From an uncultured Bacteroidota bacterium (GTDB lineage Bacteria > Bacteroidota > Bacteroidia > Bacteroidales > GCA-2748055), in the NCBI GenBank assembly GCA_937129385.1, contig CAKZNC010000218.1, forward strand, positions 1 through 47,761: DNA of 47,761 nucleotides, read 5' to 3'. A program made the translations under genes and the position numbers. The notes under the pieces are model-generated. The model ran no database searches. It was given only the letters and a program-made list of their open reading frames with translations, and had not been told where the DNA came from. The number at the start of each line of letters is the position of its first letter. Positions within the stretch are counted from its first letter, which is position 1. Shown here in pieces: positions 1 through 16,904 of the stretch.

Positions 1-752
1 CATCCCCCTTTTCTTCGCTGAAAGGAAGAAAAGTGCTGGTTGTTGATGACATTGAAATGAACCGGCAGCTGGTGGAGTCTTACCTGGAAGATGATGTAAT
101 GGAGATCATGCATGCTGCTGACGGAAAGGAGGCAGTGGAGGTCGCTACCTCGCAACAGCCGGATATCATCCTGATGGACATTGTTATGCCAGGGATGGGA
201 GGATTGGAAGCTGCAAGTATACTGAAAAATGATGCCAGGACCCGTCACATTCCCATTCTCCTGGTGACAGCAAGTCTGAATAATGATTTAAACGAGGAGA
301 TCCAGTCAGGACGCATCGACGGTTTGCTGCATAAGCCGGTGACCCGGCAATTGTTGTTCAGTGAGATCAGAAGGCTGGTCAGGCCGGTTGATGAGGTCCC
401 TCCACAGTCCGGTGACAAGAATGGTTCAGGGGCGATGCTCGCGGATGAATTCAAAGATATGGATCCTGCGATCGTTGCTGTATTGCCACAGGTTGTTGAG
501 CGCATGGAATCCGAGCTTATGCCTGTGTTCCGGGCGGTGAAGAAAACTTTTATCATGAGCAGGATCAGGGATTTTGCACACCAGGTCGATCAGTTCAACA
601 GGGAATATGGCATCCCTGCACTCGAAAAATGGTCGGAACAAGTACAGGAGTATGTCCGAAGATTTGACATGTTAAATCTGCCCGTATCACTCGAAGCGTT
701 CGGGCAGATCATGGAACAATTAAAAACTTATGAAATCAGAGCCGATGAATGA
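1..752 (+). CDS. Hybrid sensor histidine kinase, C-terminal fragment (receiver domain)
   Basis: The reading frame is open to the left edge (codons in phase from base 3). A GTG at 33 lies inside the receiver start, so this is almost certainly the 3' end of a longer hybrid kinase and not a gene starting at 33. The residues before it (LKGRKVLVVDD) are the usual linker-receiver junction after an ATPase domain. The receiver is intact: acidic pair VVDD, phospho-acceptor Asp in LMDIVMP (codon 177-179), Thr/Ser in LLVTAS and Lys in LHKPV. About 110 residues follow with a helical tail (FAHQVDQFNREYG onward). This resembles a C-terminal module seen in other hybrid kinases and lacks the HxxKG core of an HPt domain. 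The end overlaps the next gene, so the two are translationally coupled. The sensor part lies outside the window. Confidence 0.85.
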   Translation, partial: SPFSSLKGRKVLVVDDIEMNRQLVESYLEDDVMEIMHAADGKEAVEVATSQQPDIILMDIVMPGMGGLEAASILKNDARTRHIPILLVTASLNNDLNEEIQSGRIDGLLHKPVTRQLLFSEIRRLVRPVDEVPPQSGDKNGSGAMLADEFKDMDPAIVAVLPQVVERMESELMPVFRAVKKTFIMSRIRDFAHQVDQFNREYGIPALEKWSEQVQEYVRRFDMLNLPVSLEAFGQIMEQLKTYEIRADE

Positions 753-1884
753 ACAACAGGATACTCAATTGGTGCTAATTGTGGATGATTCGCCCCAGAA
801 CCTGCAGATACTCGGGATTCTTCTGGAGGAGATCGATTGTGATATTGCAGTGGCATCCAATGGAAAAGATGCGGTTGACATTGCCAGGGAGCAGCATCCA
901 GACCTGATTCTCCTTGATATCATGATGCCGGTCATGGATGGATATGAAGTCTGCCGGATTCTACAGGAGGATCAAAACACCAGTGATATCTCCATCATTT
1001 TCCTTACCGCACTGTCTAATCCGGATGACCTGGTGAAGGGGTTGAAGCTGGGCGCCGTGGATTATGTTGCAAAACCCTTTAAAGGGGTCGAGCTGTTGGC
1101 AAGGGTACGCAATCATTTGCGTACCAGGAGCATGATGAAGGAGCTTGCTTACCTGAATGCAACAAAAAACAAGTTCTTCTCCATCATTGCGCATGACCTT
1201 AAAAATCCATTTTACACCATTATCGGATTTTCAGAGATGCTCATGAAAAATATCGACACGCATACCCGGGAGGAGCAGCTGAAGTTCATGCAGATGATCT
1301 ATAATTCCGGGAAGGATGCACACGGACTGCTTGAAAATCTGCTGAACTGGTCGCGCATCCAGATAGGGTCCATCAGGGCTGAATTGACCACACTCAGTTC
1401 ACTGGACCTGGTGGAGCGGACAGTTGCATTCCTGGAGCCCATGGCAAAGAAGAAATCCATTCGGCTGGAGCAGGAGGAAGATTCAGCATATGAATTCCGC
1501 GGCGATGAGAACATGATGCAGACCATACTTCGGAATCTTGGCAGCAACGCAATCAAATTCACTCCTCCCTCTGGAGAGGTACTAATCCTCACCCGGGAAT
1601 CGGAAGACGGAAGCGGGGTTGAATTCATCGTGAAGGACAATGGAATCGGGATGCCGGAAGAGGTACAGTCGCAGCTGTTCAGGATCGATGCCAGGGGGAC
1701 GAGAAAAGGGACGGATAAAGAGGCCGGAACAGGGCTTGGGCTGATCCTGTGCAAAGAGTTTGTAGAGTTCCAGGGCGGAGATATTGCAGTTGAAAGCAGG
1801 GAGGGAGAAGGAAGCGTATTCACGGTACACATACCATATGTTGAAGGGGAGGCAGCGAATGAAAAATCAGAAGTTAATGCATGA
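745..1884 (+). CDS. Response regulator-histidine kinase fusion (REC-HisKA-HATPase)
   Basis: A soluble kinase of about 379 residues. It has an N-terminal receiver (VDDSPQN, phospho-Asp in LLDIMMP at about residue 58, Lys in AKPF), then a HisKA helix with the acceptor His in IIAHDLKNP (about residue 150). A HATPase_c domain follows, with N-box NAIKFT, G1 DNGIGMP and G2 GTGLGL. All catalytic residues are present. With the sensor replaced by a receiver, this type takes phosphate or a conformational signal from another kinase, probably the hybrid encoded just upstream. I chose ATG 745, an 8-base overlap with the upstream gene, because the receiver begins soon after; ATG 730 is an in-frame alternative adding five residues. 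The end overlaps the next gene by 4 bases (ATGA), pointing to one operon. Confidence 0.88.
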   Translation: MNEQQDTQLVLIVDDSPQNLQILGILLEEIDCDIAVASNGKDAVDIAREQHPDLILLDIMMPVMDGYEVCRILQEDQNTSDISIIFLTALSNPDDLVKGLKLGAVDYVAKPFKGVELLARVRNHLRTRSMMKELAYLNATKNKFFSIIAHDLKNPFYTIIGFSEMLMKNIDTHTREEQLKFMQMIYNSGKDAHGLLENLLNWSRIQIGSIRAELTTLSSLDLVERTVAFLEPMAKKKSIRLEQEEDSAYEFRGDENMMQTILRNLGSNAIKFTPPSGEVLILTRESEDGSGVEFIVKDNGIGMPEEVQSQLFRIDARGTRKGTDKEAGTGLGLILCKEFVEFQGGDIAVESREGEGSVFTVHIPYVEGEAANEKSEVNA

Positions 1885-4800
1885 GGGATTCATTTAAGAT
1901 GGCAGTCAGGCAAAAAAATAAAAGCACATTCCCGATCATCATGCTGGCAGCGGATGAGAAGCAGGCGGCGATCTTCAGTGAGAAATTGAATGAGAGCAAT
2001 TATACGCACCTGGAATTTGTCACTTCCGGGGATAAATTGTTGGAAAGTATCTCGCAGGAGAAGTACCGGCTGGCCATAATCGACCTGGAGTTTTCGGGTA
2101 GGGGCAGTGGAATCGAGGTCGCCTGTACGGTTATGGAAGAGCAAGACCTGCCGATGATCTATATCGGGAAGGAGATTGACAGACAGGATTTTCAGAAGGT
2201 CAGGGAAACGCTGCCGTGGGCAGTTTTCACAAAACCGGTGAACTGGGTGGAGCTTATCTCCGCCATCGATAATGCCGTAGTCAGGTCAGCCGACATGGAT
2301 TGTACGATCGACCGGCATATCTGTCCGATCGCCGACAAATCGGTCCTTGGTCACCAGTCCCTGGATAAGAATGGAAATATCGTTTATATCAACCAGAGAT
2401 GGCTGGAGATGACAGGTTATGAAAGCCGCGAGGAGGTGATGGGCCGGAATTTTTCCGAATTCATTGTGGACAGTGACAAGCCGGTATTCAAAAAGCGGTT
2501 CCCGAAATTCAAAAAGAGGGGGGAGGTGCTGAATGCTCCCTTTACCCTGAAAAGGAAGGATGGGGGAATCGTGCAGGTCGTTGTGAGCGGCAAGATCGTA
2601 TATGCTCCTTCCGGCCGGTTTGTCAGAACCCATTGTATGCTGAATGATATATCGTTGCAGGAGCGCCAGAAAAAGGAATTGGAGGAGATGCTCCACAACC
2701 TGGAGGAGGCGGAGCGCATCGGAAAAATGGGGAGCATGGTGCATGAAGGCAGGTTGAAAAAGAGCTTCTGGTCCAGGATGATGATGGTCCTGCACGGGAT
2801 GGATCCTGACAGGGACGAGGTCCCTGCATTTGGCCAATACACGGAGCTGGTGCATCCCGATGACCGGCACATTATGCAAAAGTCATATGATCGTGCATAC
2901 AGGGAGGGGAGCGTCACTACCGAGTACAGGATCGTTCGGAAGAATGACGGTAAAGTGAGGTTTTTAAGGCTTGAGGGAGAGGTTACGGATAAGCAGGATG
3001 CTGACAACGGGATCTTCAGGGGTATGCTTAAAGATATCACAGAGGAGAAGGATTCTCTTTTCAGGAACGAACTGCTGGGGAAGGCGATCGAAAGTAGCCT
3101 GACCGGGTTTCTGATCGTTGACGAAAGAATCCAGATCACCTATGTCAACCACTCCTTGCTTGTCATGTGCGGTTATGACACAGCTGAAGAATTGCTTGGG
3201 AAAGATCCTGATGTATTGTTTTCCGAACCAGAGCAGGGTTCAGCGGTCAAAGAGGAGCTGGACCGGAACGGGGAGTGTGTGATGGAGGTCAGGGGCAAGC
3301 GGAGGGACGGGACCCTTTTTGATGCACTGGTCTATTACAGCAAAAGAAAAGATCCAAATAACAGGGACATCTATTTTGGTTCAGCCATCGATATCACGGG
3401 GCAGAAAGAATCCGAGAAAGAGTTGATCCTGAGTGAACGACGTTTCAGGTCCTCTTTTGATAAATCGGTGATCGCGATGGCGATTGTCAGCCCGGACGGT
3501 ACACTGACCTCCGCAAATGCATCCGCCTGCAGGTTCTTTGGATACAGTGAATCGGAACTACTGCAGAAAAGTTTCGAGGACCTGACCCACCGGGAGGACA
3601 TGGAGCGCTCAAGGCAATATTACAATGACTTACAGTTTAGAGGGAAATCTTATCAGCTCCAAAAAAGATATATTGACAAATCAGGTACAGTCAAGCACGG
3701 GATCACTTCTTTGACACCTGTATTTGACAGTGGAGGAGAGCTTCTTTATACTGTTGCCCATATCCTGGATATTACTGAACAGGTAAAGGCAGAAGAGAAC
3801 CTGGAAGAGCGGGAAGTCTATTACAGGACTTTGTATGAATCGGCCAGGGAGGGGATCATCCTGATCAAAGACAATAAGGTTGTGGATTGCAATGCCATGA
3901 CCGCAGTCATACTGGGTCAAGATTCCCCGGATGATATCATCGGGACACAGCCCCTGGAATTTGCACCGGAAATGCAGCCTGACGGCCTGGCATCACTTGT
4001 GAGGGCAAAGGATCACCTTGCTGGTGCCGAAGCAGGAAATGAGCAGACTTTCGAATGGATGTTCAGCAGAAAAGACGGTTCGACTGTTCCCGTCGAGGTT
4101 TCACTCTATGCCATCCAGGTACGTGGAGAACAGGTGATCCAGGCAACGGTGCGAGACATTACCCTGCGAAAACAAAGTGCCAGGGAGCTTGAACGGGCCG
4201 GGGTGATCCTCGATGCCACTTCAGATGCCGTGCTAACCATGTCACCCAAAGGAAAAATAAGGTATTGGAACAAAGGGGCAGAACGCATCTTCGGTTACAG
4301 CCAGGAGGTGGCCATTGGCGAACACTTCAGTCTGATCTACAAGGAAAATGACCGTGGGGTGATCGCCTCCACGATGACAAATCTTAAAGATGGAGACGGG
4401 GTTTCCGAAATCGAAACCCGGGCGGTCACGCTTGAAGGACGTGTGATCGATGTGCTGTTGTCCCTTTCTGCGGTGAAGAACAACGATGGATCGATCGAGG
4501 AGATCGTGCTGGTTGCCAAGGATATTTCGGCAAGTGCCGAAGCGACCCGCGCCCTGGAGGAGAGTGAAAACAGGTACAAGGACCTCGTGGAGAAATCGGG
4601 TGTGGCGATCCTGGTGGATGACCGGGATGGGAAGATCGTCTTTTTTAACCAGGATTTTGCCAGTCTTTTCGGCTACCAGGCTTCAGAGATCAGGAAGAAA
4701 AAGCGGGAGGACCTGGTGCATCCCGATTCAATTGATGCCGTGGCCAGGCATCATCAATTGCGCATGGATGGAGAGGCCAGCGAGGATCAATACCAGGTAA

Positions 4801-5615
4801 AGGGGGTACGGAAAGATGGTTCTGAATTCTGGCTGGAAGTGAAGACCACTACCCTGAAAGAGGAGGGCAATATCTATGGAACAAGGAACTACATGTGGGA
4901 TATCACGGATCAGAAAGAGTTTGAGCAGCGGTTAAAAAGAAGCAACGAAGAGATCACCCGGCTTTCGCGCCATGTGGTTGCGATCAGGGAGGAGGAGCAG
5001 CGCATGATCTCCTCCAACCTTCATGACGATCTCGGACAGCTGCTTACAGCATTGAAAATGGATGTGAGCTGGATCAGGTCCAATGCACCTGCTGAGGAGA
5101 AAAAGATCAGGTTCAGAGCCGAATCGGCCATTACGATCACCGACCAGGCAATGTCTGCGATCAGGGAGATCACCTCCCAGCTGCGTTCCCCTGTGATCGA
5201 TAATCTCGGGCTACCGGATGCCATCGATAACCTGGTCGCGACCTACAGGGAGCGGAGTGACCTGAAGATCAAACTGGAGTTGCCTTCCTCGGGCAATGAG
5301 ATCTTCGGAGAGATCGCCACATCGATCTACCGGATCATCCAGGAGTCCCTGACCAATATCCTGCGTCATGCAAGGGCCTCCAAGGTGCTGATCAGGCTGG
5401 AGATCAAAGGAGATGCGCTTGATCTGACCATTAAGGATGACGGAATTGGGATCGATTTGAAATTTCCGGGATCAGGAAAATCTTTCGGGATCATCAGCAT
5501 GCGTGAACGTGCATTGCAGCACAGCGGATTGTTCCGGATCGGTCGTGCCGAGGAAGGAGGAACCATCATACAGGTGAAGTTGCCACTTGGCAAGCCAAGG
5601 ATGGTAAATGAATGA
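1881..5615 (+). CDS. Multi-PAS sensor kinase of the NarX/DegS (HisKA_3) type
   Basis: A 1244-residue protein without membrane segments. Residues about 15-130 form a receiver-like domain: Asp in AIIDLEF and Lys in FTKPV are present, but the usual Thr/Ser is Gly in MIYIG. Seven consecutive PAS domains of about 115-125 residues each follow, several ending in the DIT(E/D) PAC motif. The C-terminal 220 residues hold a HisKA_3 dimerisation helix with acceptor His1048 in SSNLHDDLGQ and a HATPase with NILRHA, DDGIGI and a SMRERA end. This kinase class normally phosphorylates NarL/LuxR-type regulators; the only one in the window is at 8102-8728. Start ATG 1881 overlaps the previous stop by 4 bases; ATG 1899 is an alternative. 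The ligands of the PAS domains cannot be told from sequence. Confidence 0.9.
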   Translation: MRDSFKMAVRQKNKSTFPIIMLAADEKQAAIFSEKLNESNYTHLEFVTSGDKLLESISQEKYRLAIIDLEFSGRGSGIEVACTVMEEQDLPMIYIGKEIDRQDFQKVRETLPWAVFTKPVNWVELISAIDNAVVRSADMDCTIDRHICPIADKSVLGHQSLDKNGNIVYINQRWLEMTGYESREEVMGRNFSEFIVDSDKPVFKKRFPKFKKRGEVLNAPFTLKRKDGGIVQVVVSGKIVYAPSGRFVRTHCMLNDISLQERQKKELEEMLHNLEEAERIGKMGSMVHEGRLKKSFWSRMMMVLHGMDPDRDEVPAFGQYTELVHPDDRHIMQKSYDRAYREGSVTTEYRIVRKNDGKVRFLRLEGEVTDKQDADNGIFRGMLKDITEEKDSLFRNELLGKAIESSLTGFLIVDERIQITYVNHSLLVMCGYDTAEELLGKDPDVLFSEPEQGSAVKEELDRNGECVMEVRGKRRDGTLFDALVYYSKRKDPNNRDIYFGSAIDITGQKESEKELILSERRFRSSFDKSVIAMAIVSPDGTLTSANASACRFFGYSESELLQKSFEDLTHREDMERSRQYYNDLQFRGKSYQLQKRYIDKSGTVKHGITSLTPVFDSGGELLYTVAHILDITEQVKAEENLEEREVYYRTLYESAREGIILIKDNKVVDCNAMTAVILGQDSPDDIIGTQPLEFAPEMQPDGLASLVRAKDHLAGAEAGNEQTFEWMFSRKDGSTVPVEVSLYAIQVRGEQVIQATVRDITLRKQSARELERAGVILDATSDAVLTMSPKGKIRYWNKGAERIFGYSQEVAIGEHFSLIYKENDRGVIASTMTNLKDGDGVSEIETRAVTLEGRVIDVLLSLSAVKNNDGSIEEIVLVAKDISASAEATRALEESENRYKDLVEKSGVAILVDDRDGKIVFFNQDFASLFGYQASEIRKKKREDLVHPDSIDAVARHHQLRMDGEASEDQYQVKGVRKDGSEFWLEVKTTTLKEEGNIYGTRNYMWDITDQKEFEQRLKRSNEEITRLSRHVVAIREEEQRMISSNLHDDLGQLLTALKMDVSWIRSNAPAEEKKIRFRAESAITITDQAMSAIREITSQLRSPVIDNLGLPDAIDNLVATYRERSDLKIKLELPSSGNEIFGEIATSIYRIIQESLTNILRHARASKVLIRLEIKGDALDLTIKDDGIGIDLKFPGSGKSFGIISMRERALQHSGLFRIGRAEEGGTIIQVKLPLGKPRMVNE

Positions 5616-5629
5616 TCCGACCTGTCAGG

Positions 5630-5659
5630 TTGCCAGTTGATTTTAATGGCGTATATTGT
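5630..5659 (+). promoter_or_regulatory. Candidate promoter before the cobalamin-binding protein gene
   Basis: A TTG at 5630-5632 is followed after 19 bases by TATATTGT at 5652-5659, which matches 6 of 8 positions of the Bacteroidota minus-7 element TAnnTTTG. The gene starts 30 bases further on. A promoter here would let the B12 protein and kinase pair be made independently of the upstream kinases. Confidence 0.3.
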
Positions 5660-5688
5660 ATCCTGATCATTTTTAAAAAGAGACTAAA

Positions 5689-6747
5689 ATGAAAAGTCAA
5701 ATAGGTTGTCTGCAGCTGGAGGAAAAGATGGCTGACCTGGTAGAGGTAACAACGCAGGAGATCTTCAAAGCTTTTCCCGGAATGGAGGAGCGATATGGAA
5801 AAGAAGGGTTGCAGCGTTGCAGGGAGGATATTGGTTTTCATTATGCCTACCTCAAAACTGCGATCTGTTTTGACGAGAAGGAACTTTTTGCAGATTATTT
5901 CAAGTGGGTGCACCACTTTTTCAAGAGTATCAATCTGCCTGCAGCATATACCGATGAACCTTTCGAGATCATTGTAAGGGTATCTGGCTCTTTGCTGGAT
6001 TCCGGACCGGCAGGTGAAGTGAAAGAATATATCCGCTATGCGCTTGAACAAGGGGCAGGATCTTCTGCACCCCCGGCAAGTTTTATTGCGGACGATAATC
6101 AACTGAACCTGCTTGCCACGCAATACCTGAATGCACTTCTCAGGAGAGACCGTGCCCTGGCTGAAAGGCTTATCAGTGATGCCCTGGAGAACGAGGTTTC
6201 GGTCAAAGATATCTACCTGCATGTATTTCAGCCTGCGCAGCTGGAGATAGGCAGATTGTGGCAGGAAAACAAGATATCGGTGGCCATGGAGCACTATTTT
6301 ACTGCGGCCACGCAGTTCATCATGTCCCGACACTATCATTATATCTTTTCTTCAGAGAAGATGCCCTGGAACATGGTGGCAACAAGTGTTTCGGGTGAAT
6401 TGCATGAACTTGGGATCAGGATGGTGTCCGACTTTTTTGAACTGGAGGGGTGGAACACCACTTACCTTGGTTCCAATACGCCTGACAATGCCATTGTGAA
6501 TATGCTACGGGAAACAGATGCGGATGTGCTTGCCATTTCAGCAACCATCCCTTTCAATCTTCCAAACGTGACACAGCTGATCCGGTTCGTCAGGGGAGAA
6601 ATGAAAAATGATGCTCCCCGGATCCTGGTAGGCGGAAGAGCATTCAGCAGCAATCCTGAGCTCTGGAAGAAGATGGAGGCCGACGGGTTTGCAACAGATG
6701 CAGAAGGGGCAGTGAAGACAGCCGGGAATTTGATCAACCTGAAATGA
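5689..6747 (+). CDS. Cobalamin-binding protein with CarH-type photoreceptor signature
   Basis: A 352-residue soluble protein with no DNA-binding domain. Residues 1-135 are helical and of unclear role. Residues about 140-225 match the B12-binding cap (four-helix) domain and 228-352 the Rossmann-like B12-binding domain. Two motifs stand out. The cap has Trp191, nine residues, then Glu201-His202, the W-x9-E-H signature of the light sensors CarH/LitR, where these residues surround the adenosyl group of AdoCbl. The binding domain has E-L-H239-x-x-G, whose His ligates cobalt. The C-terminal VGGRAF segment fits the nucleotide-tail pocket. Unlike CarH there is no MerR helix-turn-helix, so output probably goes through protein contact with the kinase encoded 3 bases downstream. 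Alternatives are a cobalamin-level sensor or a methyl-transfer corrinoid protein; the latter is less likely given the motif and the neighbours. Confidence 0.85.
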   Translation: MKSQIGCLQLEEKMADLVEVTTQEIFKAFPGMEERYGKEGLQRCREDIGFHYAYLKTAICFDEKELFADYFKWVHHFFKSINLPAAYTDEPFEIIVRVSGSLLDSGPAGEVKEYIRYALEQGAGSSAPPASFIADDNQLNLLATQYLNALLRRDRALAERLISDALENEVSVKDIYLHVFQPAQLEIGRLWQENKISVAMEHYFTAATQFIMSRHYHYIFSSEKMPWNMVATSVSGELHELGIRMVSDFFELEGWNTTYLGSNTPDNAIVNMLRETDADVLAISATIPFNLPNVTQLIRFVRGEMKNDAPRILVGGRAFSSNPELWKKMEADGFATDAEGAVKTAGNLINLK

Positions 6748-6750
6748 TAT

Positions 6751-7920
6751 ATGGTAACAGGACTGGTAATCAATTGTGAAAAGGATCTGCGTATCCGTGA
6801 GCTGCTCTTCAACAGCCTCGGGGATTCGGTTGTACCCGACATCCCTGGGTCGCTATATGACATTGTTGAAGGAGACGACGCAGATAAACTGCGTGCATTT
6901 GCAGATGACCTGGAAAATACCGGGTTCGTATTTGAGCGGGAGATCAACCTGCAAACAGCCATTTTTCCACTGCCCCTGAAATTCACCGGGGGAAAGCTGG
7001 ATGATGGTTATTTCATTTTTGTCGTGAGGACCAATGATGATATTCCCTTTCTTTACGAGGAGTTGATGAAGGTGAATAACGAGCAGGCCAACTATCTCCG
7101 GTCCATGGCAAGCAAGTATACACAGACCAACTCGGCCCTTAAAGAACAGGATGAACTTTACAATGAGGTCTCCCGCATGAACAATGAACTTTCCAACCTG
7201 CATCGGGCACTGGAGCAAAAAAATGCGGAACTCAACAGACTCAACAGGCAGAAAAACGAATTCCTGGGCATTGCTGCACATGATCTGCGTAATCCACTTT
7301 CCAGTGTGATGTTTTACCTGGATTTCATCATGGAGGATGCCGACCGGCTGAGCGAGGAGCAAAAAGAGTTTGTCGGACAGGTAATGCTGTCCTGCCGTTC
7401 CATGCTGAACCTGGTAAATGAGCTGTTGGATGTATCGGCCATTGAATCGGGAAAGATCAGGCTGGAACTGGGCGAGGTTCACCTGGATCAACTGGTGGAG
7501 GAAACCATTCAGTCTTACAGGAACCTGGCCGAACAGAAAGAGATCGAAGTTGAGATCGAGCTTCAGCAGAAGGGGATCATGGTCCGCGGTGATGCCGAGC
7601 GGCTCAGGCAGGTGCTGATCAATCTTTACACCAATGCTGTGAAATTTTCTGAAAGAAAGACCCGGATCCTGGTAAAGGTACTGCAAAAAGAGAGCGGAGG
7701 TCAGCTGGTCGTCATGGACCAGGGCAAGGGGATCGCACCAGGGGAGTTAGACATGTTGTTCCATCCATTTCAGAAGACAGGTACCCAGTCCACCGGGAAT
7801 GAAAAGAGCACCGGTCTTGGATTGTTTATCGTAAAAAAGATCGTCGACGCGCACCAGGGAAAGATCGATGTGAGGAGTACACCCGGAGAAGGTACCGTTT
7901 TTACAGTTACACTTCCCTGA
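6751..7920 (+). CDS. Sensor histidine kinase paired with the cobalamin-binding protein
   Basis: A 389-residue soluble kinase. Residues 1-105 form a small domain that may be a divergent PAS fold. A long charged coiled coil (about 110-170) leads into HisKA with acceptor His177 in GIAAHDLRNP. The HATPase has N-box NAVKFS, G1 DQGKGI and G2 STGLGLF, all intact. Start ATG 6751 lies 3 bases after the stop of the cobalamin-binding gene, so the two are co-translated and probably interact. The coiled coil could carry a conformational signal from a bound partner. No receiver or output domain is fused, so phosphate must go to a separate regulator; the LuxR-type protein 181 bases downstream or one of the hybrid receivers nearby are candidates (inference). 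Confidence 0.9.
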   Translation: MVTGLVINCEKDLRIRELLFNSLGDSVVPDIPGSLYDIVEGDDADKLRAFADDLENTGFVFEREINLQTAIFPLPLKFTGGKLDDGYFIFVVRTNDDIPFLYEELMKVNNEQANYLRSMASKYTQTNSALKEQDELYNEVSRMNNELSNLHRALEQKNAELNRLNRQKNEFLGIAAHDLRNPLSSVMFYLDFIMEDADRLSEEQKEFVGQVMLSCRSMLNLVNELLDVSAIESGKIRLELGEVHLDQLVEETIQSYRNLAEQKEIEVEIELQQKGIMVRGDAERLRQVLINLYTNAVKFSERKTRILVKVLQKESGGQLVVMDQGKGIAPGELDMLFHPFQKTGTQSTGNEKSTGLGLFIVKKIVDAHQGKIDVRSTPGEGTVFTVTLP

Positions 7921-7970
7921 GATCTCCTTTCTTCCATATTCTCCTGAAGGATCCAGGGGAATGCATGATA

Positions 7971-7996
7971 CTCTTTTCCTTAAGGATGAAAAAGAG
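7971..7996 (+). other. Possible stem-loop in the 181-base gap after the kinase gene
   Basis: CTCTTTT at 7971-7977 can pair with AAAAGAG at 7990-7996 around a short CCTTAAGG-containing loop. It has no clear U-run after it. It could be a weak terminator or chance; the rest of the gap shows no convincing promoter. Confidence 0.25.
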
Positions 7997-8101
7997 ATTT
8001 AAACGTACTTCTTTGAAAAGATGGAAAAAAGCGATACCTTGGCTTTGCAAGTCGATCGACGAACATTCAGATCCGGAGATTGCTTCTAAATTAACCAGTT
8101 T

Positions 8102-8728
8102 ATGATCAGTTTTCTTGTTGTTGATGATCACCCGATAGTGCGTAAAGGTATTTGTCAGATCCTGGATGACTATGCGGTAGATACACAGATCGTTGAGGCT
8201 GGTGATGCCTCTGAAGCGATGAAGAAATTCAGGGAGCATAAGTATGATTTGATACTTCTGGATATCAATCTTCCCGGAAGAGGAGGGCTGGACCTCCTGG
8301 AAGATATCAAGGGGTATGAACCAGAGGTGAGGGTGCTCATGGTGAGCATGTACCCGGAACAGCAGTATGCGATTCGTGCCCTGCGTACAGGTGCCGCAGG
8401 GTATCTTACAAAAGAGAGCGCCGCAGATGAGTTGATCGTTGCCATTGACAAAATTCTAAAAGGAGGCAGGTACATTACACAATCCATCGCAGAGCAGATA
8501 TTCGATGCCATCGACAAGCAGGGACCACCTCATGAGTCTTTGAGTAACAGGGAGTTGGAAGTTTTGATCCAGATCGCTAAAGGGCGCAGCCTGAAAGAGA
8601 TAGGTGAAATGCTGGCATTGAGTGAAAAGACGATCAGTACCTATCGCAGCCGTATCCTGGAAAAGATGTCCATGAGTTCCAACGCCGACCTGGTCCGGTA
8701 TGCCCTGCAGAACAAGATGATCGACTGA
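8102..8728 (+). CDS. Response regulator, NarL/FixJ family (REC-LuxR HTH)
   Basis: A 208-residue transcription regulator. The receiver has acidic pair VDDHP, phospho-acceptor Asp54 in LLDINLPG, Ser in MVSMYP and Lys in LTKES. A LuxR-type helix-turn-helix fills residues 143-205 (LSNRELEVL ... SEKTISTYRSRI). Full length and complete. This family is usually phosphorylated by HisKA_3 kinases, and the seven-PAS kinase at 1881-5615 is the only such kinase here, so they are the likely cognate pair despite the two genes between them. It is the only DNA-binding output in the signalling region, which makes it the best candidate transcription factor for the cluster. It is separated from neighbours by gaps of 181 and 237 bases, so it may have its own promoter, which I could not place. 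Confidence 0.92.
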   Translation: MISFLVVDDHPIVRKGICQILDDYAVDTQIVEAGDASEAMKKFREHKYDLILLDINLPGRGGLDLLEDIKGYEPEVRVLMVSMYPEQQYAIRALRTGAAGYLTKESAADELIVAIDKILKGGRYITQSIAEQIFDAIDKQGPPHESLSNRELEVLIQIAKGRSLKEIGEMLALSEKTISTYRSRILEKMSMSSNADLVRYALQNKMID

Positions 8729-8965
8729 GAACCGGGACAGTGTGATAATGCCGGTCACCAATACTGCATGAATGCAGTCGGAGAAGGTCGGTTTTCTGAT
8801 TGATCTGCAATTTGTAAGTATTTCCCTACACCGACACTTCAGTTTTCTTCCCACTCCTGCAGACCATTCCCACTACATTTATAGAATCTGCCTACAGATG
8901 ATATGCTTCCTCTTTACAGTGCCAGGTCCCCGGAATCTTTACATTTATACAATAAAATCGAAGCG

Positions 8966-9367
8966 ATGAATTACTTTGATGCACCCTACCTGTCCATCAA
9001 CTGGGACGACGATTGCAATTGTGTCTGCATGGAGTGGAAGAAATTTGTAAAAGGCAGGGGTTACAGGGATGGACTTGATAAAGGGCTGGAACTGGCAGTA
9101 TCAAAAAGTACTGAAAGATGGCTGGCTGATCTTCGTATGATGAACGTGGTGGATATTGAAGACCAGGCATGGTCGAACGAGGACTGGTTTCCGAGAGCCA
9201 TAGCAGGTGGGATCAGGTATATGGCGATCGTGATTCCCAAGGATGTATTTGCGAAGATGTCGGTCAATTCGATCATGGGAAAAGTTCCGGAATCGGCCAT
9301 CCAGGTTGCCTATTTTGAGGAAAACGGGGAGGCCAAACAATGGCTTAAGAAACAACCCGGACAGTGA
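8966..9367 (+). CDS. SpoIIAA/STAS-like small conserved protein
   Basis: A 133-residue soluble protein. I start it at ATG 8966 (MNYFDAPYL); an upstream in-frame ATG at 8903 adds a tail with no conserved look. The pattern WLADLRMMNVV followed by DQAWSNEDWFPRA and IVIPKDVFAKMSV is shared by a family found widely in Bacteroidota, which appears to adopt the SpoIIAA/STAS-like alpha/beta fold. No clear phosphorylatable DSSG-type motif is visible. The gene lies 12 bases before a hybrid kinase and upstream of a SpoIIE-type phosphatase, so a partner-switching role is plausible, but this is inference from fold and context only. A kinase-regulating adaptor is another option. Confidence 0.8.
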   Translation: MNYFDAPYLSINWDDDCNCVCMEWKKFVKGRGYRDGLDKGLELAVSKSTERWLADLRMMNVVDIEDQAWSNEDWFPRAIAGGIRYMAIVIPKDVFAKMSVNSIMGKVPESAIQVAYFEENGEAKQWLKKQPGQ

Positions 9368-9379
9368 AAGGATAAGCAG

Positions 9380-11560
9380 ATGGAGAAGAGGGCACGCATA
9401 CTTGTTGCAGAGGACAGCCGGACACAGGCTGAGATGATCGGTTACATACTGGAGGAGTCCGGATATGATTTCCGGATCGCATCCGACGGGAAAAAGGCAC
9501 TACGGGAAATTCCTGGCTTTGATCCGGAACTCGTCATTTCAGATGTGATCATGCCTGAAATGAATGGGCATGAACTTTGCAAACGTCTCAAAGCCAATGA
9601 AGCGACGCGAGATGTTCCTGTGCTGTTGCTGACCAGCCTGGCTGGGCCTGAAGACATCCTTGCTGGTCTTGAATCGGGTGCAGACTCCTACCTGATGAAG
9701 CCCTATGATGAGAAGATTTTGCTGGAAAAGATAGAATTGCTGTTGCAAAAAAGCGGATCATCTGGGAACAAGCCGGGGCAGAAAACCTATAAGTTTATTG
9801 TGGAAAAAGCTTCTTATGAGTTGAAGACCAGCAGGAGGAACATGCTGGATATGCTGCTGGCCGTCTGCGATTCTGCGATCCAGGATAACAGGAAATTGCA
9901 GACAGCACAGGAGGATCTTTCAGAAATAAATGCGACCCTCGAGGAACGTGTCGAGGAGAGCACCAGGACCCTGCAGGAAAAGCTGGAACTGGGCCGTTCC
10001 ATGGAGGAACTCCTGGAGAAGAACAGGGAGCGCTACACACGTTTGGCACACAGTGCCAATGTGGGGATCATCCTGGTCGACCTGGACGGCAGGATCGAGT
10101 TCGCCAATGCAGCGATGGCAAAGATCCTGGATACCAGGTCTGAAAAAGATCTCGGCGGGAGCGATTTCAGTACATATTTCTCCTCGAAGGAGGAATACAA
10201 TGAGATCTTTGAAAGATTAAGATCTTCTGGTAAGCTTCATGATGAGGAACTAAAACTATACACCCCCAAGCGGATGCCCAGGTGGGTTACCATGAACCTG
10301 GTAAGGCAGGAGGACAGAATCAGCGGGATGATCTTTGATAAGACAGGTAAAAAATTTCTTCATGAGCGTGACCTGCATTACCGGGAGGTACTCAGGAATA
10401 CAAAAGAAAATGCGGAACGGTCTGACAGGCAGAAATCGTTTTTTCTCAAAGGGATGGCGAACCAGGTGAAAGGTCCCCTGAACCAGGTAAGCGCGTATGC
10501 CAGCCTTCTTGCTGAAGCGAAACCCGGTGATCTCAGGGCAAGGTCCTATAAGAACAGGATCAGCCTGAATGTTTTTGAGCTGAGGAACAAGATATCTCAT
10601 ATGCTTGATCTTTCGAAAATTGAGGCGGGGCAGGTCCGCCCGATCGAGAAGGAACTCCCCGTGGTTCAAAAATGCAGAGAGGTATGTGAAGAATACAGGC
10701 AAATATTGAAACTGATGGGACGGGAAGAGATCAGCATCCGTTGCCGGACGGAAGCCATTGAAGAGCAGGCGGTCATCATAACCGATTCATCACTGTTTAT
10801 ACAGATCGTCAGGATACTGATTGACAACGCGGTAGGTTTCTCTGAACGAGGAAATATCGACGTGATTATCAAGCGCATGGACGACAACCTGGAGGTACAT
10901 ATCAGGGATGAGGGCCCCGGGATCGGGAAAGAACGTCTGGAAGAGATCATCCGAAAAGCCGGCAACGGCAATTACCTGGAAGATAACCAGGAGCTGGGCC
11001 TGGGGCTGCATGTTGCCAAAAAGCTCGTCGAAATGCTGAAAGGGAAGCTTCACGCACTGTCTGCACCAGGTAAAGGGTCGGACTTCTTTTTTTCAATGCC
11101 GTTGAAGGAAAAGAAACAGGACAGTTTTCAGGAGGATGTAGAGGAATTGGCCTATTATATTTCCCATCTAAGTGATAAAACGATCATGGTGGCAGAGGAT
11201 ATGTACGACAACTACGTCTTGCTATCTGCTTACCTGGAACATACGGGAGCAAGGCTCATCTGGGTGAAGAATGGCGAGGAGGCGATCAGGAAATTCGAAT
11301 CAGGGACGAGGATCGATATGATCCTCATGGACATTAAAATGCCTGTAAAAGATGGATTCCAGGCGATCCGCGCCATCCGAGTGGTCAACAAACAGATCCC
11401 CATCATCGCAGTTACAGCTTTTGAAAGTCCGGAACACCGGTCCAAAGTAAAAGAGCTGGGAGTGAATGCATTCATCAGTAAACCGGTTGAACAAAACGAG
11501 CTCCTGGAAACACTTTCCGATTGTTTTGCCGGGAATAAACAAACAATCGAAAATGGATGA
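9380..11560 (+). CDS. Hybrid sensor protein REC-PAS-HisKA-HATPase-REC lacking the acceptor histidine
   Basis: A 726-residue soluble protein. It has an N-terminal receiver (phospho-Asp in VISDVIMP, Lys in LMKPY), a coiled coil (about 145-215) and a PAS domain (about 220-335). Next come a HisKA-like helix, a HATPase domain (IDNAVGFSE, DEGPGI, ELGLGL) and a C-terminal receiver (Asp in LMDIKMP, Lys in SKPV). Where the H-box should read SHExRTPLN, the sequence reads MANQVKGPLN, with Asn361 at the histidine position. The protein therefore cannot autophosphorylate in the normal way, though the ATP site and both receivers look intact. It may act as an ATP-dependent scaffold or phosphatase, or be phosphorylated by other kinases on its receivers. 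It starts 12 bases after the SpoIIAA-like gene and overlaps the phosphatase gene by 8 bases. Confidence 0.9.
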   Translation: MEKRARILVAEDSRTQAEMIGYILEESGYDFRIASDGKKALREIPGFDPELVISDVIMPEMNGHELCKRLKANEATRDVPVLLLTSLAGPEDILAGLESGADSYLMKPYDEKILLEKIELLLQKSGSSGNKPGQKTYKFIVEKASYELKTSRRNMLDMLLAVCDSAIQDNRKLQTAQEDLSEINATLEERVEESTRTLQEKLELGRSMEELLEKNRERYTRLAHSANVGIILVDLDGRIEFANAAMAKILDTRSEKDLGGSDFSTYFSSKEEYNEIFERLRSSGKLHDEELKLYTPKRMPRWVTMNLVRQEDRISGMIFDKTGKKFLHERDLHYREVLRNTKENAERSDRQKSFFLKGMANQVKGPLNQVSAYASLLAEAKPGDLRARSYKNRISLNVFELRNKISHMLDLSKIEAGQVRPIEKELPVVQKCREVCEEYRQILKLMGREEISIRCRTEAIEEQAVIITDSSLFIQIVRILIDNAVGFSERGNIDVIIKRMDDNLEVHIRDEGPGIGKERLEEIIRKAGNGNYLEDNQELGLGLHVAKKLVEMLKGKLHALSAPGKGSDFFFSMPLKEKKQDSFQEDVEELAYYISHLSDKTIMVAEDMYDNYVLLSAYLEHTGARLIWVKNGEEAIRKFESGTRIDMILMDIKMPVKDGFQAIRAIRVVNKQIPIIAVTAFESPEHRSKVKELGVNAFISKPVEQNELLETLSDCFAGNKQTIENG

Positions 11561-12509
11561 CCGGAATTCAAATATCAGTGATCGTAATCTACTCGACATG
11601 AAAATGATGCTGGAGAAGAAGCAGAAAGAGATCAGGCGTCTTAAGAAAGACCTTGTACTTCAGGAGAGCGAAATCGATGCGCAGAAAGAGATCATTGAAA
11701 ATCAGCGTGATGTAGCACTCAGGCAACGTGATGAGGTTGCATTCCAGCAAAAAGAGATCAGGGCGAGTTTTACTTATGCAAGCAGAATACAATCGGCGCT
11801 GCTAACTTCGGATGAACAGTTCAGTAAAAACTTCAGGGAGTACTTTATCCTGTACAAACCGAAGGATATCGTTAGCGGAGATTTTTACTGGATGACCAGC
11901 GATGAGAAAAAAATTGTGCTTACTGCTGCAGATGCAACAGGGCATGGTGTGCCGGGTGCTTTTATGAGCCTGATGGGCATGGTCTTCCTGAACGAGATCG
12001 TTGATTCCATGGGTGTGGATGAACCAGCTGAAGTACTCGAGATGATGCGGAAGAGGATCACCAGTGCGTTTTACAAGGAGGAGGGGGTGGAGCAGATCAA
12101 CGCCGGCATGGACATGTCGATGGTAAATATTGATAAAAAGACCCTGGAGATGAGATGCGCCGGTGCATTCAACTCGGTCATCGTGATCAGTAAAGGAAAA
12201 CTTCATGAGATCCCTGCCAATAAAATGCCGATCGGGTACCATCCCTACCTGATGGAAAAACAATTTACAACGCGGACACATCAACTTGAGGAAGGTGACC
12301 GTATCTACCTCTTTTCCGATGGTTTTATTGATCAGTTCGGCTGGCGAAACAATAAGAAATTCATGAAACGAAACTTCAAGGAGTTATTGCTGGAGATTCA
12401 GAACGTCCCCGTGCAGGCTCAGAAGGTATTGCTTGAGAATAGTCTGAATAACTGGAAAGGAGATCTTGAACAGTTGGATGATATCATTGTCATCGGAATC
12501 GAGGTTTGA
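11553..12509 (+). CDS. SpoIIE/RsbU-type PP2C protein phosphatase
   Basis: A 318-residue protein starting at ATG 11553, overlapping the previous stop by 8 bases; an upstream in-frame ATG at 11466 lies inside the preceding gene. Residues about 15-75 are a strongly charged coiled coil. The rest is a SpoIIE-type metal-dependent Ser/Thr phosphatase, with SGDFYW, DATGHGVPGA (metal-binding Asp), GMDMSMV, LFSDGFIDQFG and the C-terminal QLDDI motif. Such enzymes dephosphorylate STAS anti-anti-sigma proteins, or couple receivers to phosphatase activity. Here the receiver is not fused but encoded directly upstream, and a SpoIIAA-like gene opens the same operon. I see no anti-sigma kinase of the RsbW type in the window, so the substrate is unknown. 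Confidence 0.9.
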   Translation: MDDRNSNISDRNLLDMKMMLEKKQKEIRRLKKDLVLQESEIDAQKEIIENQRDVALRQRDEVAFQQKEIRASFTYASRIQSALLTSDEQFSKNFREYFILYKPKDIVSGDFYWMTSDEKKIVLTAADATGHGVPGAFMSLMGMVFLNEIVDSMGVDEPAEVLEMMRKRITSAFYKEEGVEQINAGMDMSMVNIDKKTLEMRCAGAFNSVIVISKGKLHEIPANKMPIGYHPYLMEKQFTTRTHQLEEGDRIYLFSDGFIDQFGWRNNKKFMKRNFKELLLEIQNVPVQAQKVLLENSLNNWKGDLEQLDDIIVIGIEV

Positions 12510-12528
12510 ATGAAAACCAGGAGTCATA

Positions 12529-14721
12529 ATGGAGGATAGGATAATTTCGAAAGTGAATGAAGTGCTGATCGTTGAGGACAGTCCGACACAGTCCGACAAC
12601 CTGAAATATATGCTACAGGGAACAGGGATGCAGGTTGTGCAGAGCTATAACGGATCAGAAGCGCTTACTTTAATGAAAAGCATTCGTCCCGACCTCATCA
12701 TCACTGATGTCATGATGCCGGAGATGAATGGTATTGATCTTTGCACGCACCTGAAGAACAACCCCGATCTGAGAGATATCCCGGTGATCATTCTGACCAC
12801 TCTCGACAGTGTGGATGACATATTGACAGCACTTGCTGCGGGCGCTGACGGTTATGTGATGAAACCCTACAATAGAACAAACCTGCTCTCAGGGATCCAA
12901 CAGGTAATTGACAACAGGGAGATTCTTAAAAGCGGGGAAGAGGAAGAACACTTGCAGCTGACCTATAATGGGAAAAACTATGTGATCCATGCCAATGGTG
13001 CGAAAATATTAAGTATGCTCTTTACTTCCTATGAATCGGCCAAAATGAAAAGTGCTGATCTGAAGGAGAAAAAGGAGGAGTTGCTTGTAGTAAGTAATCT
13101 TCTGAAATCAAAGATTGAGAAACGAAAGAGTGAGCTTGGTGATCAGCTGGATAAGATCAGGGATGCCGGATCAGAGATCAGGAAATCTGAGAAGAGATAC
13201 ATTGAACTTATCGAATATGCACTTACCGGAATTTTCATTCTGGATAAAGCGGGCAATATCGTACAAACCAATCTCGCTTTTTTAGCCATGCTGGGTAAAG
13301 ATGCCAACAGGGAAGAACCGATAAGTAGTGCAGAGATCTTTGAGAGTGACGAAACATGGCAGGGATTCCGGGATGCATTGCATAGCAAACAATCGGTTGC
13401 TGAATTTGAGACCCGGCTGAAACATGAAAAAGGTGAAAAGATCGTAGTATCGGTCAATGCCTTTTTAGACGAAGGAGAGATCTCATGTGTTGTAACGGAT
13501 ATCACTGAACAGAAGAAAGAGGAAGAACAATTGAAAGAGATGATGGAAGAACTGATCAATGCGAAAGAGAAGGCAGCGCAGTCTGAATCCGTCAAGACCT
13601 CTTTCCTGGCCAATATGTCGGACCGGATCCTGCAGCCCGTAAAAGTGATGTTAAAAGAAGTTGAGCAGGTTGGGGGAGAAAACCTGGCAGGGGAGAATTT
13701 ACGGTTTCAATTGAACGAGATCATTGATATTGGGAATTACCTGTCAAACCTTATCGACAGTACGATCGATGTCGCCATGCTTGAGGCAGCGGAGGCAAAA
13801 TTCAGACTTGATGATTGTTTCATTAACCAGTTGCTGATCGATATTTTTGCTGACCAGCAGAAGAAACTGGAAGAAAAGGGGATGGAGGGGCCGGAACTCA
13901 GATTGCGGCGGCAGATCAAGGACACTGGATTTATGATCAGGAGCGAAGACTACCGGCTCAAAAGAATATTTCAAACCCTGCTTGAAAATTCATTCAAATA
14001 TACACAGAAGGGGATCATCGAATTTGGCTATAAAATATATGCACAATCTTCAGGCAAGGAGGGTGTGCTGCTTTTTTATGTCAAAGATACCGGAGCTGGA
14101 ATGCCTGAGCAGAAGGTGCGACATATTTTTGACCGGTTTGGGTCCGGGGAGGAGGAGGGGAGGAGGAATGATTATCATGCAGCAGGCCTCGGCCTGTCAC
14201 TCTCACGCGGGTATGTGGAAATGCTGGGCGGTAGGATCTGGTGTGAATCCGAGCCGGAGAAGGGAACAGGGTACTTTTTTACCCACCCGGTTGAAAACAG
14301 TGATGCGGTTAGGGCTTTATCTTCCGAAAAACTGGCTACACGAAGCCTGAAAATGATCACCCAGGGAAAGAAGGTGTTGCTGACCGAACATATTGATGAA
14401 CAGTATGAGCTGTTAATCAGTATCCTGGAGCCATTGAATATGGTCATTGAACGGGCCGTTTCGGGTAAAGATTTGGTCGACCAACTGAAATCCGGGAAAA
14501 AGTATGACCTGTTATTTGTCAACCTGAAATCGTCAATTGTAACCGGACAGGAGCTGGTGACTGAAATACGGCGACTGAACAACAAGGTTCCGGTGATCGT
14601 TCGCTCGACATTTTTTTCAGATGAGGAAACGCATCTGCTCAGGGAGTTTGGATGCGATCACTTGGTTACCAAGCCGGTAGACCCGAAGGTCCTGTTCAGT
14701 ATGATCGGGAGCTTGCTCTGA
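12529..14721 (+). CDS. Hybrid sensor protein REC-PAS-HisKA-HATPase-REC with dead H-box and dead C-terminal receiver
   Basis: A 730-residue paralogue-like neighbour of the 9380 protein with the same domain order. The N-terminal receiver is intact (VEDSPTQ, Asp in IITDVMMP, Lys in VMKPY), followed by a coiled coil and a PAS domain (about 225-335). The H-box reads NMSDRILQPVK with Asp365 in place of the acceptor His. The HATPase has ENSFKYT, DTGAGMP and AAGLGL, so ATP binding looks possible. The C-terminal receiver reads LLFVNLKSS with Asn665 instead of the phospho-Asp, and its acidic pair is TEH, so it is a pseudo-receiver. Only the N-terminal receiver can be phosphorylated. An AGGAG at 12519-12523 supports ATG 12529. 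It closes the operon that starts with the SpoIIAA-like gene. Confidence 0.9.
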   Translation: MEDRIISKVNEVLIVEDSPTQSDNLKYMLQGTGMQVVQSYNGSEALTLMKSIRPDLIITDVMMPEMNGIDLCTHLKNNPDLRDIPVIILTTLDSVDDILTALAAGADGYVMKPYNRTNLLSGIQQVIDNREILKSGEEEEHLQLTYNGKNYVIHANGAKILSMLFTSYESAKMKSADLKEKKEELLVVSNLLKSKIEKRKSELGDQLDKIRDAGSEIRKSEKRYIELIEYALTGIFILDKAGNIVQTNLAFLAMLGKDANREEPISSAEIFESDETWQGFRDALHSKQSVAEFETRLKHEKGEKIVVSVNAFLDEGEISCVVTDITEQKKEEEQLKEMMEELINAKEKAAQSESVKTSFLANMSDRILQPVKVMLKEVEQVGGENLAGENLRFQLNEIIDIGNYLSNLIDSTIDVAMLEAAEAKFRLDDCFINQLLIDIFADQQKKLEEKGMEGPELRLRRQIKDTGFMIRSEDYRLKRIFQTLLENSFKYTQKGIIEFGYKIYAQSSGKEGVLLFYVKDTGAGMPEQKVRHIFDRFGSGEEEGRRNDYHAAGLGLSLSRGYVEMLGGRIWCESEPEKGTGYFFTHPVENSDAVRALSSEKLATRSLKMITQGKKVLLTEHIDEQYELLISILEPLNMVIERAVSGKDLVDQLKSGKKYDLLFVNLKSSIVTGQELVTEIRRLNNKVPVIVRSTFFSDEETHLLREFGCDHLVTKPVDPKVLFSMIGSLL

Positions 14722-14884
14722 GAAAGTATCCTGACCGGAGAAACAACCTATGTCGGATAGGCATTCCCTTACATACAGAGTTCAGTTTTTCCATATTCGG
14801 TTTGCAAGTTCCCTGATTCGACGATTGTACAATGATTACATCCTATGACATATCATCTTTACAGTGGAGGCCCTTTAGATTGGG

Positions 14885-14892
14885 TATCTTTG
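14885..14892 (+). promoter_or_regulatory. Minus-7 promoter element before the PAS-PAS kinase gene
   Basis: TATCTTTG is an exact match to the Bacteroidota consensus TAnnTTTG. It lies 32 bases before ATG 14925 in a 203-base gap. No clear TTG at minus 33; TTTA at 14858-14861 is a weak candidate, about 23 bases upstream. It would start a separate transcript for the 14925-19325 kinase group. Confidence 0.5.
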
Positions 14893-14924
14893 AGTTAAGT
14901 TATTCCAGTGCTTAAAGAAATTGC

Positions 14925-16424: not shown

Positions 16425-16429
16425 CAATT

Positions 16430-16894
16430 ATGAGAAAAGACATCGTAATATTGATCGCAGAAGATGATGATGGCCATGCAGCGCTTGTACAGCGAAACCT
16501 GAAACGTTCGGGGATCGCCAACAAGATGATCCGATTCAACAATGGAGAGGAGGTCCTCAAATTCCTTATTAAAGAGGAGGGGGATGAAGGTCCTGTATTA
16601 AGTACCCCTTATTTACTACTCCTGGATATCAGGATGCCAAAGGTGGATGGCATCGAAGTTTTAAAGAGGCTGAAATCTCATCCTGAATTGAAAAAGATGC
16701 CGGTGATCATGGTAACCACAACGGACGATCCCAGGGAAGTCAATCGGTGCCATGAATTGGGATGCAATAATTATGTCATCAAGCCAGTCGATTATGAAAA
16801 ATTCGTAAAAGCGATTCGGCAACTCGGGCTTTTCCTAAAAGTCGTGCGTATACCTGAATTTGAAGACAATGTGACGATTGAAAAAACAGATTGA
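16430..16894 (+). CDS. Single-domain response regulator, Rcp1-like
   Basis: A 154-residue lone receiver. It has the acidic triplet AEDDDGH, a long beta3-preceding loop (EEGDEGP) typical of the Rcp1 subfamily, phospho-acceptor Asp66 in LLDIRMPKVDG, Thr in MVTTTD and Lys in VIKPVD. There is no output domain, so it acts as a phosphate shuttle or by protein contact. Start ATG 16430 is 5 bases after the PAS-PAS kinase stop, which is its probable donor. The next gene, a REC-kinase, starts 10 bases after its end and may be its target. Rcp1 relatives usually serve phytochromes, but no phytochrome is present here. Confidence 0.93.
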   Translation: MRKDIVILIAEDDDGHAALVQRNLKRSGIANKMIRFNNGEEVLKFLIKEEGDEGPVLSTPYLLLLDIRMPKVDGIEVLKRLKSHPELKKMPVIMVTTTDDPREVNRCHELGCNNYVIKPVDYEKFVKAIRQLGLFLKVVRIPEFEDNVTIEKTD

Positions 16895-16904
16895 AACGAA
16901 TTCA

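Follow-up and report, generated by a model that had tools for sequence, protein, structure and literature searches.

What does a cobalamin-binding protein without a DNA-binding domain do when a histidine kinase gene follows it almost without a gap? The question is raised by positions 5689-7920 of contig CAKZNC010000218.1 (assembly GCA_937129385.1) from an uncultured Bacteroidota bacterium of the order Bacteroidales; the whole stretch analysed, 47,761 nucleotides of that contig, is referred to here as the window. A preliminary description of this locus, made from the sequence alone, proposed that the first gene encodes a photoreceptor of the CarH type, based on adenosylcobalamin (AdoCbl), that signals through the coiled coil of the adjacent kinase. 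Here we show that the pairing of sensor and kinase is real and widespread, and that the sensor, judged by its sequence, is a photocobilin-type protein with the globin first instead of a shortened CarH. The two genes probably form a photoreceptor-kinase system in which this sensor acts on a dedicated HisKA kinase.

The open reading frame (ORF) of the sensor and its predicted parts are the following (aa, amino acid positions).

5689..6747, + strand: sensor ORF, 352 aa, with an N-terminal photoglobin and a C-terminal AdoCbl-binding domain; photocobilin type, globin-first order
5692..6054, + strand: photoglobin, or phycobiliprotein-like globin domain, aa ~2-122, six predicted helices (Pfam and 32-sequence profile)
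5818-5820, + strand: Cys44, at the bilin-attachment position of phycobiliproteins
5827-5829, + strand: Asp47, equivalent to SasPcob Asp270 by alignment
5905-5907, + strand: Trp73, equivalent to SasPcob Trp296 by alignment
6100..6345, + strand: B12-binding module, helical cap (aa ~138-219) holding Trp191, Gln192 and Glu201-His202
6259-6261, + strand: Trp191, cap residue
6289-6294, + strand: Glu201-His202, cap residues
6358..6744, + strand: Rossmann-type B12-binding domain, aa ~224-352, with His239 and G261-x3-P265
6403-6405, + strand: His239, predicted lower ligand, within E237-L238-H239-E240-L241-G242

The C-terminal part of the sensor is covered by the Pfam families B12-binding_2 (aa 143-213, 57 bits, cut-off 23) and B12-binding (aa 229-341, 66.8 bits, cut-off 32.1). 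As described previously, a DNA-binding domain is lacking: the Pfam scan contained no helix-turn-helix family at E <= 1, and the N-terminus is a globin, not a MerR-type domain. This globin had been overlooked, and it rules out a CarH-like module on its own, although the AdoCbl-type B12 module itself stands. The Pfam family Phycobilisome (PF00502) scores 22.0 bits on the globin, just under the cut-off of 22.2, and is detected at E <= 0.05 in 26 of the 32 members of the globin alignment, the window copy included. The profile of the 32 globin sequences retrieves allophycocyanin and phycocyanin chains (best E 1.1e-8) and the globin of the photocobilin SasPcob (E 1.1e-7). Compared with the PDB, the sensor sequence matches the photocobilins 8j2x and 8j2w best (E 1.3e-23), then 8j2y (2e-20), followed by the CtMerR module 8jbs (8.9e-15) and CarH (7e-14). 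An AlphaFold2 model of the sensor, made with 64 sequences, reached a predicted local distance difference test score (pLDDT) of 94.7 and a predicted template modelling score (pTM) of 0.90. The structure matches of this model span the B12 module only and carry no information on the globin fold; within these bounds VIA-align ranked 8j2w first (Z 26.1, root mean square deviation (rmsd) 1.8 A over 208 residues), then 8j2y (25.8) and 8j2x (25.7), the three photocobilins lying at 1.8-2.1 A over 208-211 residues, ahead of a corrinoid protein (Z 23.0), methionine synthase (22.5) and CarH (~20), with Z about 20-21 for AerR and AppA structures. By Foldseek E-value, CtMerR came ahead of the photocobilins.

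The residue patterns reported for the sensor, Trp191-x9-Glu201-His202 and E-L-His239-x-x-G, are exact, and W-x9-EH occurs once in the six frames of the whole window, in the sensor ORF. Trp191, Glu201, His202 and His239 align with SasPcob Trp61, Glu71, His72 and His108, and Asp47 and Trp73 with Asp270 and Trp296; all six SasPcob chromophore residues checked are present, with the chain index shifted by six relative to the residue number, a shift that fits all six and the numbering of the structure alignment. Asp270 and Trp296 are the bilin residues named for SasPcob in PMC10979010; Asp47 is also aligned with the His that takes the place of Asp270 in AbPcob. The four light-response elements of SignatureFinder, GxxW, EH, GxxH and GxxxP (PMC11796333), are all found in the sensor, as GRLW, EH, GELH and GSNTP.

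Scanning 84,980 species genomes yielded 414 relatives, and the best 80 of them, which come from many phyla, were retained; the 101 sensors aligned for conservation reduce to 94 distinct ones, window included. Trp191, Glu201, His202 and the x9 spacing are found in 94/94 and His239 in 93/94; the invariance of EH is partly built in, since 80 of the 101 rows were retrieved by a scan with two seed patterns, one including EH and neither including Trp191 or His239. The Gly of GxxH is present in 77 of the 94 and Gln192 in 89. Gln192 stands at the position of TtCarH His132, a further departure from CarH, and SasPcob likewise has Gln there. Because Gln192 replaces this His, a CarH-like bis-His light state is not expected; by analogy, the light state should be SasPcob-like and water-ligated. 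Asp47 is conserved in 87 and Trp73 in 90 of the 91 distinct relatives with a residue at the position. Cys44, replaced by Ser, Thr or Tyr elsewhere, is found in only 51 of the 94, which rules out a covalent bilin at this position as a family trait. Four residues past Asp47, His51 (5839-5841) is shared by 82 of the 94 and is not His in the aligned SasPcob; the alignment marks it as a putative subfamily-specific pocket residue.

The kinase gene begins three bases after the sensor gene (stop/start gap 6748-6750), as had been stated, and is composed as follows.

6751..7920, + strand: partner histidine kinase ORF, 389 aa (Pfam and model)
6751..7032, + strand: PAS-like N-terminal domain (N-domain), aa ~1-94, outside all Pfam families
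7078..7248, + strand: long signalling coiled coil, aa ~110-166, with the conserved motif N-N-E-L / Q-R-E-L-x-K-K-N-x-E-L
7249..7917, + strand: kinase core, HisKA followed by HATPase_c, the latter with residues of the N, G1, F and G2 boxes
7279-7281, + strand: His177, predicted phospho-acceptor in the HisKA motif

HisKA (167-234) and HATPase_c (280-389) are both matched far above the Pfam cut-offs, and the motifs of a HisKA kinase are intact (H177, N295, D323-x-G325-x-G327, F337/F340 and G355-x-G357); no membrane part is predicted. The kinase model (pLDDT 82) consists of the PAS-like N-domain, with a predicted order b-b-a-b-b-b and block pLDDT of 69-88, the long coiled coil, HisKA and HATPase. 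Nearly the whole kinase was aligned by Foldseek to the LOV-kinase structures 4gcz and 8a6x (408-409 columns, rmsd 17-29 A over the long coil). None of 32 members of the N-domain family, a domain absent from the preliminary description, has a Pfam PAS match, and a PDB relative of this domain was likewise not found.

The neighbourhood of the pair is conserved, not only across Bacteroidota, where this had been suggested as a check, but in many phyla. A partner ORF lies directly downstream of the sensor on the same strand in 78 of the 80 loci, and in 73 it is a kinase; the loci are not independent, 11 being Azospirillum or its near kin L097. With the nearest start codon taken, 77 of the 78 partner ORFs start within 140 nucleotides of the sensor, and that of L078 at 417. 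The partner combines the N-domain with a kinase core in 69 of the 80 loci and is a kinase without the N-domain in four: L080, L111 (HisKA_3), L126 (hybrid) and L135 (HisKA_2). In three loci, all Hymenobacteraceae, the kinase is gone and the N-domain and coil are left as partners of 163-171 aa (L100:6018-6533, L113:6014-6508 and L140:6019-6510), which may be adaptors or remnants. One partner consists of N-domain, PAS and GGDEF (L119) and one is cut by the contig end (L099). Of the two remaining loci, L065 stops at the contig end, and L116, a Verrucomicrobiales contig, carries two natural single-chain fusions (4968-7553 on the + strand, the other on the reverse strand); each joins photoglobin and B12 domain to the N-N-E-L coil, PAS and kinase, and each lacks the docking-type N-domain. 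Outside the best 80, a GGDEF gene overlaps the sensor in Ilyobacter (L063). The preliminary description had also considered that the pair might always lie in corrinoid methyl-transfer operons. This is not the case: a single query, for a methyltransferase like the one next to L002 (the methyl-transfer-type corrinoid protein of this genome), had a match near one of the 80 loci, where up to 5 kb was covered in either direction (less than 4.8 kb upstream at 17 loci and downstream at 13), and the corrinoid-protein query matched sensors alone.

The association also holds when approached from the kinase. The N-domain profile (32 sequences), applied to 395 genomes of the phylum, found 16 places in 16 genomes, all directly after a sensor, with globin and B12 domain split over two frames in G211; this sample represents Bacteroidota in the broad sense, because its L032 sensor and L066, from a metagenome-assembled genome (MAG) of Melioribacteraceae, are identical. 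A second sample of 82 genomes, from the order that surrounds an Azospirillum genome, has 22 places in 21 genomes, each beginning ~0.7-0.8 kb beyond a same-strand photoglobin match on its contig, a distance with room for a B12 domain; the photoglobin profile was applied to this second sample only. Over both samples, 477 genomes, 38 of 38 N-domain places lie beside a sensor; having been built from kinases next to sensors, the N-domain profile could overlook distant relatives in other settings.

Two Bacteroidales MAGs, L069 and L108, have a sensor ORF without a fused globin (with only ~0.6 kb covered ahead of the B12 domain in L069) and keep the kinase N-domain, which rules out the co-loss of globin and N-domain hinted at by L046. 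After the kinase, both carry a separate globin-like ORF of ~157-161 codons (L108:6898-7383 and L069:2432-2902; profile E 1e-7 and 6e-9), by eye most like the Ilyobacter globin, in what looks like a three-gene version of the system. A further copy of the pair (L085:4986-6044) lies on a contig binned as Lokiarchaeota, possibly through transfer to archaea or a binning error.

How might such a pair work? In the dark, AdoCbl would be bound base-off via His239, with its adenosyl group packed on Trp191 and Glu201-His202 at the dimer interface of a sensor that, by analogy with SasPcob, would be dimeric; ahead of the B12 module would sit a photoglobin whose bilin-type pocket (Asp47, Trp73) is conserved. 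Light would cleave the Co-C bond, the adenosyl group would leave as adenosine, and rearrangement of the E201-H202 helix would alter the shape or oligomeric state of the sensor, like that of SasPcob (PMC10979010). The PAS-like N-domain of the kinase would dock the sensor, and the N-N-E-L coiled coil would relay the sensor's state to the kinase core. We infer AdoCbl binding, light as the signal, the docking, whether the kinase is switched on or off, and its response regulator; a bilin as second chromophore in the window organism is the least certain part.

Action of the sensor in trans has a precedent, because AbPcob and SasPcob can, through protein contact, modulate a cyclase domain that is separate from them (PMC10979010). 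The PAS-like domain is the natural contact candidate, because it was found only with the sensor, is absent from the L116 fusions and is kept with the coil after loss of the kinase. The suggested route runs through the kinase coiled coil, which has a conserved motif; the coupling element is probably the PAS-like domain ahead of it. A broader formulation, which we advance tentatively, is that members of a widespread class of globin-first photocobilins signal in trans, each to its own histidine kinase, via a PAS-like docking domain that serves this sole purpose and constitute the first two-component systems based on B12 photochemistry, mostly without a canonical bilin supply, with a photoglobin that may bind a different ligand or serve as a built-in transmitter.

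Several observations weigh against the proposed system or parts of it. The PAS assignment comes from the predicted topology and a very weak hhalign match to PAS domains of the window (probability 8%, P 0.004). The four partner kinases without the N-domain count against this domain as the contact, L047 and L064 have no same-strand neighbouring kinase (in L047, 1.4 kb downstream is covered), and six of the 28 photoglobin places in the second sample lack the N-domain. A response regulator is not a constant neighbour: receivers are found within 3 kb downstream at 23 of the 80 loci, within 2.5 kb upstream at 15 and on either side at 35. No full-length copy was found in 27 other genomes of the same family, only nine of which are at least 90% complete and clean; the gene pair is thus patchily spread, probably by transfer. 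In the tree of the B12 module, the window groups with the Bacteroidales MAGs L069 and L108 (99/86), then with Melioribacteraceae and Caldithrix, in a topology whose bootstrap is not fully settled. Finally, canonical heme oxygenase (PF01126) was found neither in the window genome, which is 99.7% complete (4.28 Mb in 236 contigs), nor in any other of the phylum carriers, 16 in all, and it is present in two of 49 genomes of relatives, a set of unstated completeness that partly overlaps the phylum sample. A contig gap like the one that cuts the photolyase domain of this genome could hide the gene here, hardly in all 16 carriers. The enzyme occurs in 43 of the 395 phylum genomes, and we state only that it is not found in nearly all carriers, without claiming a significant depletion. 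Because canonical heme oxygenase was not found, a bilin is doubtful in the window organism.

Might the kinase instead answer to B12 status, with the protein sensing AdoCbl supply (or cobalamin redox or alkylation state) and light merely destroying the ligand? The pocket would be identical for both readings, and heme oxygenase was not found in nearly all carriers tested. The relatives include many MAGs of Anaerolineae, Marinilabiliales, Cloacimonadota and other groups rich in anaerobes. Against this, the window sensor and nearly the whole family retain the light-responsive signature, whose Trp and Glu-His elements hold the adenosyl group, and no cobalamin riboswitch or other Rfam match was found in the window. 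Matches to DNA_photolyase at E <= 0.001 occur in 13 of the 16 phylum carriers, namely the window genome and 12 of the 15 others, with 12 over the curated cut-off and one below it. An argument that photolyase is lacking and light irrelevant, based on the lack of PF03441 matches in this genome, was withdrawn, as PF00875 finds a photolyase domain cut by the contig start. On balance, we consider a B12-status sensor unlikely. In favour of the light-sensing system, the window genome encodes a PduO-type AdoCbl adenosyltransferase, which 15 of 15 carriers searched have. The same genome encodes a MerR regulator (L003:1138-2025) with GVLW-x9-EH, GEWH and GQSVP, a predicted CarH-like AdoCbl photoreceptor, located, by eye, upstream of a gene resembling that of an extracytoplasmic function (ECF) sigma factor.

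Somewhat less probable still is a red-light sensor led by a bilin, with the photoglobin and its linear tetrapyrrole as the main antenna and B12 as the switch, like holo-SasPcob. The near-constancy of Asp47 and Trp73, the profile kinship to bilin-binding globins and the Cys at the attachment position in about half of the relatives speak for it, but that Cys is not universal, the heme oxygenase record is adverse, and HutW, as an alternative bilin supply, gave nothing over the cut-off in the 16 carrier genomes. The HutW matches below the cut-off are presumably HemN/HemW-type proteins.

It is very unlikely that sensor and kinase are co-transcribed yet functionally separate, given that all N-domain places in the 477 genomes lie beside sensors, the natural fusions in L116 and the partners reduced to N-domain and coil. 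The least credible possibility, a corrinoid methyl-transfer carrier beside a kinase by chance, could appeal to the distant similarity of the B12 domain to carriers of the MtbC/MtgC/MetH type, but is practically dismissed by the near-constant kinase, the match of the one methyltransferase query near just one of the 80 loci and the lack of W-x9-EH in L002.

If the sensor and kinase form a two-gene photoreceptor system, where does the phosphate go? One possible partner is encoded nearby.

8102..8728, + strand: response regulator of the NarL/LuxR type, 181 nt downstream of the kinase ORF

NarL-like regulators usually pair with HisKA_3 kinases, and a HisKA_3 kinase at 1881-5615 competes for this one. 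In Azospirillum and near kin (L072, L073, L074, L079, L097 and L114), the sensor is repeatedly preceded by a small receiver ORF of ~170-180 codons, which begins 1.7-3.5 kb ahead of the point where the sensor ORF ends and is a possible cognate regulator in that group. The region 33-19325 of the window is dense in signalling genes, with receivers and hybrid kinases with many PAS domains; a SpoIIAA-like protein is encoded at 8903-9367 and a SpoIIE phosphatase at 11466-12509. For SasPcob, interactions with STAS and SpoIIE proteins have been predicted (PMC10979010).

How does this pair compare with known systems? With CarH/LitR (5C8D), the sensor shares the AdoCbl cap and Rossmann module, W-x9-EH and the His lower ligand; it differs in lacking the MerR domain, in Gln192 for His132, in the extra globin and in the kinase partner. 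AerR/CrtJ and AppA/PpsR each have a B12-module protein without a DNA-binding domain that acts through a partner, as AppA does with PpsR. In both, the partner is a transcription factor, not a kinase, and the globin is absent; AerR is described as a co-regulator of CrtJ in PMC9144470.

The closest relatives are the photocobilins SasPcob and AbDPcob (8J2W, 8J2X and 8J2Y), which share the fusion of a B12 module to a phycobiliprotein-like globin, the W/E-H residues, the lower-ligand His, equivalents of Asp270 and Trp296 and, in SasPcob, the Gln after Trp. The window sensor differs in having the globin first and the B12 domain last, its output is a separate kinase gene with a docking-type domain versus a fused cyclase or an unknown partner, and heme oxygenase was not found in its genome. 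Schneider et al. (2022, CSBJ 20:261), writing on photoglobins, reportedly predicted that fusions of globin and B12 domain are light sensors and linked them to signal-transduction domains by fusion and neighbourhood. Such predictions are therefore not new, nor are photocobilin groups with the AdoCbl domain at either terminus, C-terminal included, or regulation of a separate enzyme in trans, both covered by Zhang et al. 2024 (PMC10979010). In the literature examined, part of it in excerpts, no photocobilin or photoglobin was found to be described together with a partner kinase, and earlier mention is possible (Schneider et al. 2022, Cheng et al. 2016). The terms 'histidine kinase' and 'kinase' do not occur in the main texts of PMC10979010 and PMC11796333, and the single mention of 'histidine kinase' in PMC11908464 concerns engineered LOV fusions. 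The function of standalone photocobilins is called 'less clear' by Zhang et al. (PMC10979010); a large set of them now gains a specific partner and a defined interface candidate.

On the kinase side, YF1, SB2F1 and other LOV/PAS-coiled-coil kinases (4GCZ, 8A6X) have the same layout of PAS, coiled coil, HisKA and HATPase. If the proposed system is correct, B12 joins the chromophores that control two-component signalling, and the pair would offer a split green-light sensor and kinase for optogenetics; it would also raise the question why a bilin pocket is conserved in organisms without a recognisable heme oxygenase. In the LOV/PAS kinases the chromophore is held in the PAS domain itself, whereas here it would sit in a second protein.

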